In this document: positions 29,309-34,654 of the stretch, in pieces
How positions within the stretch are numbered: the stretch's first letter is position 1
Layout of the letters: each line of letters begins with the position of its first letter
NCBI RefSeq assembly: GCF_025231525.1
Contig: NZ_CP103057.1
Coordinates: 1,319,001-1,383,000, forward strand
Length of the DNA: 64,000 bases
Source: Sphingomonas endolithica
Lineage (GTDB): Bacteria; Pseudomonadota; Alphaproteobacteria; Sphingomonadales; Sphingomonadaceae
Reading direction: 5' to 3'
The notes under the pieces: model-generated
Databases searched by the model: none
What the model was told of the DNA's origin: nothing
Seen by the model: the letters and a program-made list of their open reading frames with translations, nothing else
Program-made: the position numbers and the translations under genes

Positions 29309-29391
29309 CGTCATCCCGGCCTCGAGCCGGGATCCAGGGCCGCGCGCGCTGTGCTGCCGGCTCTGAATCCCGCGTCGAGCCCGGGATGACG
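29309..29391. repeat. Palindromic repeat between the enoyl-CoA hydratase gene and mmsB
   Basis: The element runs CGTCATCCCGGCCTCGAGCC ... GAGCCCGGGATGACG, with GGATCCAG/CTGAATCC inner arms. It is the same class as those at 30198 and 32589. Confidence 0.8.
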
Positions 29392-29405
29392 ATTACTCTG
29401 GTAAG

Positions 29406-30197: not shown

Positions 30198-30280
30198 CGT
30201 CATCCCGGCCTCGATCCGGGATCCAGAGCCACGAACGTCAACGTTCACCGCTCTGGATCCCGACCATCGTCAGGATGACG
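30198..30280. repeat. Palindromic repeat between hydrolase and enoyl-CoA hydratase genes
   Basis: The element runs CGTCATCCCGGCCTCGATCC ... GACCATCGTCAGGATGACG, with inner arms GGATCCAGAGC and GCTCTGGATCC. It ends 2 nt before the stop codon of the upstream gene. Confidence 0.82.
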
Positions 30281-31330: not shown

Positions 31331-31408
31331 CGTGCTCCTGCGCAGGCAGGAGCCCAGGGTAACAAAGGTATGCCTCGGGGCTCTGGGTTCCTGCGTTCGC
31401 AGGAACAC
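31331..31408. repeat. Palindromic repeat between isobutyryl-CoA dehydrogenase and hydrolase genes
   Basis: Two hairpins, GCTCCTGCGCAGGCAGGAGC and GTTCCTGCGTTCGCAGGAAC, are joined by CCCAGG...CTCTGG inner arms. The outer left arm carries the AGGAG used by the hydrolase gene on the minus strand. Confidence 0.78.
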
Positions 31409-31423
31409 GGTTGCATGCCGACA

Positions 31424-32569
31424 TCATTGCCGCGTCATCTCCCGCCCGACGATCATCCGCATCACCTGGTTGGTGCCCTCCAGGATCGAATGCACGCGCA
31501 GGTCGCGCCAGAAGCGCTCGATCGGATAATCCTGCAGATAGCCGTACCCGCCATGCAGTTGCAGCGCACGATCGACGACGCTGGAGCCGGTATCGGTGGC
31601 AAGCCGCTTGGCCATCGCCGCGAACTTGGTCTTGTCGGGCGCATTCGCGGTCACCTTGGCCGCCGCGATATACAGCAAGGCACGCGCCGCCTCGAGCTCG
31701 GTCGCCATGTCGGCGAGCATGAACTGCGTGTTCTGGAAATCCGCCACCGCCTGGCCGAACTGCTTGCGATCCTTGGTGTAGCGTACCGCTTCGTCGATGC
31801 AGCGCTGCGCACCGCCCAGCGAACAGGCGCCGATATTGAGCCGCCCGCCGTCCAGCCCCATCATCGCGATGCGGAAGCCCTCGCCCAGCCCGCCGACCAG
31901 GTTCTCGCCCGGCACGCGCACCGCATCGAACATCACCTGCCGCGTCGGCTGCGAATGCCAGCCGAGCTTCTTCTCGTTCGCGCCGAAGCTGACGCCGGGC
32001 ATGTCCTTCTCGATCACCAGGCAGGAAATGCCCTTGGGGCCTTCCTCGCCGGTGCGGACCATCGTGACATAGACTTCGTTCTCGCCGGCGCCGCTGATGA
32101 ACTGCTTGGTGCCGCTGACGATCCAGTCGTCGCCATCCTTCACCGCCTTGGTCTTGAGCGCCGCGGCGTCCGATCCCGAACCGGGTTCGGTCAGGCAATA
32201 GCTCGCGATCCGGTCCATCGTCACCAGATCGGGCAGATATTTGTCCTTCACCGGCTGCGCGCCGAACCGGTCGATCATCCAGCTGGCCATGTTGTGGATG
32301 CTGATGAACGCCGAGGTCGAGGGACAACCATAGGCCATCTGCTCCATGATCAGCGCCGCCTCCAGCCGCCCGAGATTGATCCCGCCGCTCTCCTCCGACA
32401 CGTAGATCGAGGCGAAGCCGAGTTCCGCCGCCGCACGGATCGTATCGCGCGGAAAGATGTGGTGCTCGTCCCATTCCGCGGCATGCGGCGTGATGCGATC
32501 GGCAGTGAACCGCCGCGCCAGATCCTGGATCTCGCGCTGGTCGTCGGTAAGGTCGAACTGGTTGGTCAT
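31424..32569 (-). CDS. Isobutyryl-CoA dehydrogenase (acyl-CoA dehydrogenase family)
   Basis: The 381-residue product has the FAD/acyl-CoA dehydrogenase signatures SYCLTEPGSGSDAAALKT and the C-terminal QLHGGYGYLQDYPIERFWRD. Its N-terminus, FDLTDDQREIQDLARRF, is typical. Position between mmsA and the hydrolase gene points to isobutyryl-CoA as substrate, giving methacrylyl-CoA. A general short-chain acyl-CoA dehydrogenase is the alternative. The start codon lies 19 nt from a palindromic repeat that begins the antisense nuclease unit. Confidence 0.9.
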   Translation of the reverse strand: MTNQFDLTDDQREIQDLARRFTADRITPHAAEWDEHHIFPRDTIRAAAELGFASIYVSEESGGINLGRLEAALIMEQMAYGCPSTSAFISIHNMASWMIDRFGAQPVKDKYLPDLVTMDRIASYCLTEPGSGSDAAALKTKAVKDGDDWIVSGTKQFISGAGENEVYVTMVRTGEEGPKGISCLVIEKDMPGVSFGANEKKLGWHSQPTRQVMFDAVRVPGENLVGGLGEGFRIAMMGLDGGRLNIGACSLGGAQRCIDEAVRYTKDRKQFGQAVADFQNTQFMLADMATELEAARALLYIAAAKVTANAPDKTKFAAMAKRLATDTGSSVVDRALQLHGGYGYLQDYPIERFWRDLRVHSILEGTNQVMRMIVGREMTRQ

Positions 32570-32588: not shown

Positions 32589-32670
32589 CGTCATCCCGGA
32601 CTTGATCCGGGATCCAGAGCCGCTGGCAATGCCCATCGTGACTCTGGATCCTGACGTTCGTCAGGACAAC
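32589..32670. repeat. Left palindromic repeat of the GIY-YIG unit
   Basis: The order of parts is CGTCATCCCGGACTTGATCC hairpin, inner arm GGATCCAGAGC, spacer, inner arm ACTCTGGATCC, then TGACGTTCGTCAGGA hairpin. The right-hand element at 33041 has these two hairpin types in the opposite order, so the pair is inverted. Confidence 0.82.
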
Positions 32671-32682
32671 GGGAGACGTAGG

Positions 32683-33000
32683 GTGCAACGTGAGCCGGCG
32701 ATCTACATAATGGCGAGCGCCCGCAACGGCACGCTTTATGTCGGGGTCACGTCCAACCTGATGGCACGCATCGTTCAACACCGCGAGGGCACGCTAGACG
32801 GCTTCACCAAACGACATGGCGTCAAACGCCTGGTCTGGTTCCAGATGGCCGACACGATGGAAGCAGCGATCACCCGCGAAAAGCAACTAAAGGTCTGGCG
32901 CCGCGCATGGAAGCTGGACCTGATCGAATCCGAGAAGCCCACCTGGCGCGACCTAGCCGAAGACCTAGCCTTCCCCCCACTCCCCACACCGTCATCCTGA
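32683..33000 (+). CDS. Small GIY-YIG nuclease-domain protein flanked by inverted palindromic repeats
   Basis: The product is about 105 residues from a GTG at 32683, with GGGAG 7 nt upstream. The N-terminal half matches the single-domain GIY-YIG family (YhbQ/UPF0213-like): IYIMASARNGTLYVGVTSNL stands for the GIY...YIG strands, followed by the Arg (LMARIVQHREG) and a Glu in AITREKQLKVWRR. The C-terminus is Pro-rich, and the stop codon lies within a CGTCATCCTGACG half-repeat. The gene is antisense to the surrounding valine operon, between mmsA and the acyl-CoA dehydrogenase gene, and has complete inverted palindromes on both sides. GIY-YIG proteins nick or cut DNA; this one's target is unknown. 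Confidence 0.85.
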   Translation: MQREPAIYIMASARNGTLYVGVTSNLMARIVQHREGTLDGFTKRHGVKRLVWFQMADTMEAAITREKQLKVWRRAWKLDLIESEKPTWRDLAEDLAFPPLPTPSS

Positions 33001-33040
33001 CGAACGTCAGAATGCCAAAAACCCAGCCGCCCACCAACCC

Positions 33041-33123
33041 CGTCATCCTGACGAAAGTCAGGATCCAGAGCCACAAACGCCCCCGCCCGCCGCTCTGGAT
33101 CCTGGATCAAGTCCAGGATGACG
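33041..33123. repeat. Right palindromic repeat of the GIY-YIG unit
   Basis: The order of parts is CGTCATCCTGACGAAAGTCA hairpin, GGATCCAGAGC, spacer, GCTCTGGATCC, then TGGATCAAGTCCA hairpin ending ATGACG. It is the inverse of the element at 32589. An extra half-copy, CGTCATCCTGACGAACGTCA, starts at 32990 and overlaps the nuclease stop codon. Confidence 0.82.
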
Positions 33124-33145: not shown

Positions 33146-34654
33146 TCACCCCATCGTCGGAATGACAAACGCATTGGCCCCATCCCCAACGCCACCATCC
33201 GGCCAGCGCTGCGTGATCGTCTTGACCTTGGTCCAGAACTTCACGCCTTCCATGCCGTGCTGGTTGGTGTCGCCAAAGGCCGAGCGCTTCCACCCACCAA
33301 AGGTGTGGTAAGCCACCGGCACCGGGATCGGCACGTTGATGCCGACCATGCCGACATTGACACGCGCCGCAAACTCACGCGCCGCATGCCCGTTGCGCGT
33401 GAAGATCGCCACGCCATTGCCATATTGATGCTCGCTGGGCAGGCGCACGGCATGCTCGAAATCGTCCGCCCGGACGATCTGCAGCACGGGGCCGAAAATC
33501 TCCTCCTTGTAGCTCTCCATGTCGGTCGTGACATGGTCGAACAGCGACGGGCCAATGAAGAAGCCCTTCTCATGCCCCTGCAGCTCGAAGCCGCGACCAT
33601 CGACGACCAGTTCGGCGCCTTCGTCGACGCCCTTCTGGATCCAGCCTTCGACGCGCGCCTTGTGCGCGGCGTTGACCACCGGGCCATAATGCGCGTCATT
33701 GTCGGTGCTGACCCCCACACGAAGTGCTGCGATCGCGGGCAGCAGCTTCTCGCGCAGGGCGATCGCGGTCTTCTCGCCCACCGGCACGACCACCGGCAGC
33801 GCCATGCAGCGCTCGCCGGCCGAGCCGAAGGCGGCACCCGACAGATCGGCGACGACTTGGTCGAGATCGGCGTCCGGCATGACGATGCCGTGGTTCTTCG
33901 CCCCGCCCATCGCCTGCACGCGCTTGCCCGCCGCGACACCGCGACGATAGACATAATGCGCGATGTCGGACGAGCCGACGAAGCTGACCGCGCTGATCGC
34001 CGGATGATCCAGGATCGCGTCGACCATCTCCTTGTCGCCGTGCACCACCTGCAGGACGCCCTCGGGAAGCCCCGCCTCGATGAACAATTCCGCCAGCCGC
34101 ACCGGCACCGACGGGTCGCGCTCCGACGGCTTCAGGATGAAGGCGTTGCCGGTGGCGATCGCCACGCCCGACATCCACAACGGAATCATGCCGGGGAAGT
34201 TGAACGGCGTGATCCCGGCACCAATGCCGAGCGGCTGGCGCATCGAATAGACGTCGATCCCCGGACCCGCGCCCTGGGTATATTCGCCCTTCAACACGTG
34301 CGGGATGCCGCAGCAGAACTCGATCACTTCCAGCCCGCGCTGGATATCGCCCTTGCTGTCGGCGATCACCTTGCCGTGTTCGGAGCTGAGCAGGTGCGCC
34401 AGCTCGTCCATATGCGCCTCGACCAGCGCCTTGAAATTGAAAATCACGCGGGCGCGGCGCTGCGGATTGGTTGCGGCCCAGCCCGGCTGCGCCTTGAGAG
34501 CAGCGGCCACCGCCTGGTCGAGCAATGCCTGGTCGCCGAGCTGTACGGTCGCCTGCACCTGCCCGGTATTGGGATCGAACACGTCGCCGGTCCGTGCCCC
34601 CGCCCCAGCGCCACCGCCAGAGTGGCTGGCGATGAAATGGTCGATGCTGCGCAT
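33146..34654 (-). CDS. mmsA: CoA-acylating methylmalonate-semialdehyde dehydrogenase
   Basis: The 502-residue product is an aldehyde dehydrogenase with the MmsA-type catalytic loop GSAGERCMALPV, and upstream ITPFNFPGMIPLWM. It converts methylmalonate semialdehyde to propionyl-CoA, CO2 and NADH in valine and myo-inositol catabolism. It is the first gene of the minus-strand valine cluster. The propionyl-CoA it makes is the substrate of the pcc/mce/scpA genes 17-27 kb downstream in this window. Confidence 0.95.
   Translation of the reverse strand: MRSIDHFIASHSGGGAGAGARTGDVFDPNTGQVQATVQLGDQALLDQAVAAALKAQPGWAATNPQRRARVIFNFKALVEAHMDELAHLLSSEHGKVIADSKGDIQRGLEVIEFCCGIPHVLKGEYTQGAGPGIDVYSMRQPLGIGAGITPFNFPGMIPLWMSGVAIATGNAFILKPSERDPSVPVRLAELFIEAGLPEGVLQVVHGDKEMVDAILDHPAISAVSFVGSSDIAHYVYRRGVAAGKRVQAMGGAKNHGIVMPDADLDQVVADLSGAAFGSAGERCMALPVVVPVGEKTAIALREKLLPAIAALRVGVSTDNDAHYGPVVNAAHKARVEGWIQKGVDEGAELVVDGRGFELQGHEKGFFIGPSLFDHVTTDMESYKEEIFGPVLQIVRADDFEHAVRLPSEHQYGNGVAIFTRNGHAAREFAARVNVGMVGINVPIPVPVAYHTFGGWKRSAFGDTNQHGMEGVKFWTKVKTITQRWPDGGVGDGANAFVIPTMG

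Follow-up and report, generated by a model that had tools for sequence, protein, structure and literature searches.

Small GIY-YIG nuclease genes lie between inverted CGTC-tagged REPs whose hairpin class follows the nuclease lineage in Sphingomonadales: a candidate partner for a repeat family apparently without a transposase

Among the described systems closest to the locus analysed here are the RAYT/REP systems (REPtron, REPIN), in which a gene likewise lies between inverted REPs and REP dimers occur genome-wide; RAYTs show lineage-specific pairing with their REPs. The enzyme there is an HUH/Y1 transposase and the repeats carry a GTAG tag, whereas the present unit combines a GIY-YIG fold with CGTC repeats. 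CGTC-tagged REPs have themselves been described, with a CGTC head, a stem of 8–9 bp, a loop of 4–5 nt and a CCA tail, TGTC and CCTC heads also being admitted by the definition; in the passages of the survey drawn on here they form dimers, occur as coexisting types, are found mostly in alpha-proteobacteria, and include the Neisseria repeat dRS3 as CGTC-1 (Di Nocera et al., 2013; PMC3733652). According to the same passages these REPs are apparently without a dedicated transposase, no tyrosine transposase gene is flanked by them in the species named, and what moves them is posed as a question (PMC3733652). The repeats of our locus share head, stem, loop, tail and dimeric arrangement with those of that survey, in whose passages no transposase goes with them, whereas the present analysis ties them to a family of nucleases. 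GIY-YIG homing endonucleases and UPF0213 (1zg2) have the catalytic fold in common with the protein studied here; unlike them, our gene has GIY-YIG as its sole Pfam domain match, is bracketed by REPs and sits between two open reading frames rather than in an intron or intein.

The window, by which we mean the whole stretch of 64,000 nucleotides analysed, carries the following features in and around the nuclease locus.

29310–29392, plus strand: solo REP dimer without nuclease, at another junction of the gene cluster, akin to the nuclease arms
30198–30279, plus strand: solo REP heterodimer without nuclease, built like the arms
31332–31408, plus strand: solo dimer of another type without nuclease, GTGCTCCTGCGCAGGCAGGAGCCCAG with its inverted partner
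31424–32569, minus strand: acyl-CoA (isobutyryl-CoA) dehydrogenase, neighbour, named as in the first-pass annotation
32589–32673, plus strand: left arm, a REP heterodimer forming an inverted repeat with the right arm; single-stranded DNA fold z −3.1
Left-arm REP 1: CGTC head 32589–32592; stem 32593–32600/32606–32613; loop CTTGA 32601–32605; tail CCA 32614–32616
Left-arm REP 2, minus strand: stem 32648–32655/32660–32667 with one mismatch; plus-strand loop GTTC
32683–33000, plus strand: nuclease gene (GIY-YIG; 105 aa), starting at a GTG and ending at a TGA within the third REP copy
32990–33010, plus strand: third, single REP copy CGTCATCCTGACGAACGTCAG, overlapping the end of the nuclease gene and giving its stop TGA
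33039–33123, minus strand: right arm, a REP heterodimer, inverted copy of the left arm; single-stranded DNA fold z −6.6
33146–34654, minus strand: mmsA, neighbour, named as in the first-pass annotation

The first-pass annotation of this DNA had described a 105-residue GIY-YIG frame on the plus strand between minus-strand mmsA and dehydrogenase genes, with the same two hairpins in opposite order at its ends, a left element 19 nt from the dehydrogenase start and a third copy carrying the nuclease stop. All of this was borne out: the frame matches Pfam GIY-YIG (PF01541, E 4.9e-14), 19 nt separate the left arm from the start of the dehydrogenase gene, the two arms are 85-nt inverted repeats, 82% complementary, each a dimer of two different hairpins whose order is reversed between left and right, and CGTCATCCTGACGAACGTCAG supplies the TGA. 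The hairpin at 32589–32616 fits the CGTC-tagged REP exactly in head, stem (8–9), loop (4–5) and CCA tail; the head of left-arm REP 2 is decayed (AACG in place of GACG), and the third copy by itself has an unremarkable single-stranded fold (z −1.05). With up to three mismatches allowed and near-palindromes counted on both strands, the two hairpin patterns occur 7 and 8 times in the window, where chance would give 0.16 and 0.18 occurrences.

By its domain and fold, judged from Pfam and from structural matches of the model, the window protein belongs to the GIY-YIG superfamily. GIY-YIG is the sole Pfam domain matched, Pfam giving no HUH/Y1 catalytic domain, and the AlphaFold2 model (pLDDT 91) has UPF0213 1zg2 as its best PDB match (E 6.8e-4) and the sole one below E 0.001, followed by the GIY-YIG domain of UvrC and by Slx1 (E at least 0.016). 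Catalysis in this superfamily relies on two tyrosines, an arginine, a glutamate and a C-terminal asparagine; in an alignment of 15 sequences Y8, Y19, R29, H33 and E66 are invariant and position 85 is nearly always Asn. The window copy has Lys at that position, which may alter its activity.

The genome from which the window comes (4.09 Mb) holds 113 and 105 REP copies by two degenerate patterns, against none for reversed-pattern controls. Pairs with heads pointing outwards number 23 and 39 among the first 100 copies listed of each pattern (100 of 113 and 100 of 105), so that, as in the description of CGTC REPs, copies are many and often dimeric. Seven matches to the nuclease in this genome represent six loci, since a single broken copy accounts for two of the matches. 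Inspection by eye places each of the six between inverted palindromic repeats, the sequence of which differs from locus to locus; their inverted match scores are 40, 23, 10, 16, 14 and 26, and the score of 10 belongs to the locus downstream of mdh, where the repeats are visible by eye only. Among the copies listed, neither of the two commonest REP types of this genome, ACCCCGGACTTGTTCCGGGGT (58 of 100 listed copies of the T pattern) and ATCCCCGCGNAGGCGGGGAT, occurs within 400 bp of the six loci.

Beyond this genome, the link between small GIY-YIG genes and inverted palindromic repeats proves genuine, strong and general. We assembled 135 loci, namely the six above, 29 further matches and 100 more hand-picked from the listed rows, some rows, mostly on short contigs, being passed over; since the loci were drawn from the best matches to the window protein, proteins closely related to it carry most weight in the tests. 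In the 100-bp bin just upstream of the gene, CGTC-REP matches point head outward in 72 cases and inward in 19, and in the bin just downstream in 64 and 22, falling to at most four per bin and orientation beyond 200 bp and out to 2 kb. A strict head-and-stem detector placed REPs on both sides in 69 loci, on one side in 24 and on neither in 42; as it is blind to headless types, we used an agnostic test of inverted similarity between flanks. The earlier suggestion that palindromes of this kind would be found to flank such genes holds: among 134 loci (one was left out for its short flank), 103 score at least 18, as do 33 of 300 mismatched pairs and 0 of 265 placements displaced by 900 bp, these displaced controls being an incomplete stand-in for intergenic gaps because they were not picked for intergenic position. 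Homologues lacking flanking repeats had been named as evidence against the idea, and the scores do speak against its strict wording, in that 14 of the 134 loci fall below 14, although in many of these a repeat can be seen at one flank or at both. The bracketing also extends beyond the order. Of 36 loci from named records (35 not titled Sphingomonadales plus one Sphingomonas locus, taken from 80 of at least 584 relatives), 23 score at least 18, against 49 of 300 mismatched pairs and 0 of 63 displaced placements, and the positives include Rhodanobacter, Xanthomonas, Kaistia, Pseudoxanthomonas and Neisseria gonorrhoeae. Moreover, the two sides of a locus match each other: in 62% of the 63 two-sided loci left and right stems agree to within 1 of 12 bases, compared with 15% when sides are re-paired (maximum 32% in 2000 shuffles).

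In particular, we have established that hairpin class follows protein lineage, within genera and at non-syntenic sites, and that the partnership of nuclease and repeat is cognate and lineage-specific. Of the 135 loci, 93 are labelled with one of two loop classes, CTTGT/A-like in 59 and GNAN in 34; those with other loops were left unlabelled, and the hairpin call returned none in 11 of 111. On the protein tree of these 93 loci the loop class changes 9 times, whereas shuffles within genera give a mean of 27 and a minimum of 16. When synteny was removed by retaining a single locus for each genomic context, contexts defined strictly by homologous flanks on both sides gave 8 changes among 55 loci, where shuffles average 18.5 (minimum 11; 0/2000 shuffles) and, in a second set, 7 changes in 52 loci against 17.5 (minimum 10; 0/2000); loosely defined contexts gave 6 changes in 34 loci against 11.6 (2/2000, and 7/5000 in a separate run). 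When each locus was compared with that of the nearest protein from a different loose context, the similarity of their stems was 0.77, against 0.57 in shuffles (1/5000). Since the 135 loci are spread over 80–85 strict contexts, the pairing has been kept across many places; one set of 38 CTTGT loci forms a clade that occupies 10–11 strict contexts. An apparent clade of nine loci, read from tip order, was discarded as not being a clade, and loose single-linkage contexts (44, with groups of 33 and 23) were discarded for merging unrelated sites.

The nuclease also goes with the number of REPs. A match at E 1e-5, a threshold that admits some other GIY-YIG subfamilies, is present in 177 of 296 genomes of the order, each from a different species, and at least 10 REPs occur in 78 of these 177, as opposed to 5 of the 119 genomes without a match. 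The mean REP count is higher with the nuclease in 18 of the 20 genera holding both states (0/20000 stratified permutations). Class agrees as well: T-class REPs outnumber G-class REPs in 30 of 39 genomes with T-only nucleases and in 4 of 19 with G-only nucleases (Fisher 3e-4), the class of a genome being taken from labelled loci only (70 genomes, of which 12 with both classes were set aside). Neither REP pattern is found in 24 of the 177 nuclease-positive genomes. As regards REPs in genomes without the nuclease, which the first-pass annotation had taken as a sign against its idea, they do occur and speak against its strict wording, at least five being present in 14 of the 119 negative genomes. 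Of the 51 genomes with at least 20 REPs the nuclease is present in 50. When 12 of those 14 genomes were queried a second time for the nuclease, without a positive control, none was detected. Two genomes in which the nuclease was undetected, G010 and G212, hold 52 GNAN-class REPs and 19 REPs, respectively, and a recent loss of the nuclease from G010 is possible. In G017, of the same genus as G010, there are 71 REPs and a single nuclease match.

Considering these associations, we suggest the GIY-YIG nuclease as the strongest candidate for the partner that CGTC REPs have seemed to lack. That the locus is a unit of nuclease and cognate repeat, a GIY-YIG endonuclease between inverted CGTC REPs with lineages paired to hairpin types, strikes us as an evenly balanced call; the nuclease probably binds and cuts the hairpin, and its spreading of the repeats has a slightly less than even prospect. 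We prefer cutting that spreads and homogenises the repeats to service of the host or homing. A REP that turns single-stranded in replication, repair or DNA uptake would fold into its hairpin, and the cognate nuclease, reading stem, loop and CGTC head, would cut it; the break would be repaired from another REP copy, or the cut strand copied, so that the arms stay alike. The same repair or copying might occasionally put a REP dimer, and rarely one with the gene, into a new intergenic site, and the unit would then operate like RAYT/REP with a GIY-YIG enzyme replacing the transposase. There is a modest signal of concerted arms: they are more alike within than between loci at mdh-sucD (15/20000 permutations, using 12 of the 13 gene-bearing loci), at mmsA (93/20000) and at a third fixed site (389/20000). 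At these three sites the left arm finds its best match in the right arm of the same locus in only 4/12, 2/8 and 3/23 loci. We tentatively propose, then, that small GIY-YIG nucleases are dedicated mobilisers of CGTC REPs, non-homologous to RAYTs, whose cut-and-copy repair creates and homogenises the repeats, every lineage of nuclease evolving along with a hairpin of its own.

If this is true, the 2013 question of what moves CGTC REPs is answered. These REPs are widespread, with Neisseria dRS3 among them, yet in the passages of the 2013 survey drawn on here no enzyme is tied to them (PMC3733652), and a nuclease that is bracketed by REPs, paired with them by lineage and predictive of their copy number provides a testable origin. 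The natural pairs of nuclease and hairpin are, in addition, a large set for learning rules of recognition and a possible source of sequence-specific single-strand nucleases as tools. Our literature search, with most subscription papers beyond its reach, returned nothing linking a GIY-YIG nuclease to CGTC REPs, and the passages found of PMC1564403 hold nothing on these REPs. Within the literature searched, the tie of the CGTC-REP class to the nuclease by lineage, dosage and class is new.

An overlap with work on Ssn is likely. Ssn, a Neisseria GIY-YIG protein reported in 2025, is reportedly a sequence-specific single-stranded DNA nuclease that acts on a repeat (NTS) and modulates transformation; it is said to have about 100 residues and repeats around its gene, and in these traits it resembles the window unit. 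The N. gonorrhoeae homologue of the window protein (59% identity over 98 aa), which may be Ssn, sits among repeats resembling dRS3.

It is from this side that an alternative arises, which we regard as rather unlikely, in which the nuclease serves the host by cutting or binding REPs on single-stranded DNA, controls DNA uptake or recombination between genomes, and retains the REPs as address tags that it does not spread. Ssn is reportedly described in such terms, and the setting of the gonococcal homologue among dRS3-like repeats fits them. The gene is, moreover, under purifying selection, with dN/dS of 0.11–0.15 between the window gene and three orthologues of the same junction, rising to 0.24–0.51 towards more distant ones, and of 0.05–0.15 between closer orthologues, the last value speaking for a service to the host (0.18–0.51 for distant pairs; an early in-frame stop occurs in 6 of 135 loci), and one syntenic group of 21–23 loci spans several genera, which shows long residence and also suits a host function. 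Against this reading, the gene is patchy, 119 of the 296 genomes having no match at E 1e-5, several paralogues with different hairpins occur in one genome, more in the manner of selfish families, and the same sites exist in gene-less and decayed versions. The first-pass annotation had proposed to look for empty sites at the mmsA–dehydrogenase junction, and gene-less versions of it were found. A relative of the dehydrogenase is present in 60 of 61 genomes of the genus, and of 30 loci in the genus (mmsA lying upstream in 22) eight carry the nuclease, six have a gene-less gap of 2–114 nt, eight a nuclease-free stretch of 481–667 nt, and eight no mmsA upstream. Among 30 loci of the genus at mdh-sucD, 13 carry the nuclease, two hold decayed remnants (one found by match, L265, and one by eye, L260), nine have gaps of 35–121 nt and six have longer nuclease-free stretches; the remnants indicate loss at a formerly occupied site. 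That the nuclease also occupies the mmsA–dehydrogenase junction in a second genus was considered and rejected, as neither mmsA nor the dehydrogenase was found in the eight loci concerned (g5); the same search finds both genes at L042, of the same genus as the window.

A second alternative makes the nuclease gene a homing passenger that inserts between the halves of REPs spread by other means. The gene does lie between REP partners that are found elsewhere as gene-free dimers of fixed spacing, and homing, too, predicts an association of the nuclease with REP abundance. Considering that hairpin class tracks protein lineage across non-syntenic sites and that no other enzyme for CGTC REPs was found (Y1 alone was searched), we hold homing to be improbable.

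Further, three solo REP dimers, absent from the first-pass annotation, lie at other junctions of the gene cluster, and those at 29310–29392 and 30198–30279 were aligned with the arms. Their presence would suit a coincidence in which REPs fill all intergenic gaps or serve as terminators and the gene happens to share one; we reject this as very improbable, given the matching of left and right sides, their co-diversification with the protein and the failure of any displaced placement, not necessarily an intergenic one, to reach the score. Least credible of all is spread of CGTC REPs by a Y1 transposase (RAYT), since, for all that Y1-positive genomes are slightly richer in REPs (P 0.019 overall; P 0.008 among nuclease-negative genomes, with means of 2.8 against 1.8), Y1 transposases occur in 48 of 296 genomes and in 9 of the 51 with at least 20 REPs, 42 lacking them, the window's own genome has no detected match to PF01797 despite its 113 and 105 REPs, and the survey passages report no tyrosine transposase gene with CGTC REPs on its flanks in any species that they name (PMC3733652). 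The earlier label of a RAYT-independent repeat and nuclease system is apt as regards independence from RAYT; wholly new the system probably is not, the Neisseria relative Ssn having reportedly been linked to a repeat already.

Other repeats occur beside members of the nuclease family. In the window's own genome, a weakly similar GIY-YIG paralogue (C1:2270565–2270783) lies between inverted repeats that belong to a different type, TTCGTCTCGAG...CGAGCTTGTCGA, and the broken GIY-YIG copy (C1:3357209–3357477) retains hairpins that resemble each other on its two sides. Three of the sampled loci (L093, L147 and L122) are flanked by yet another type of repeat, CGTCATTGC...GCAATC, which lies outside the two patterns counted.
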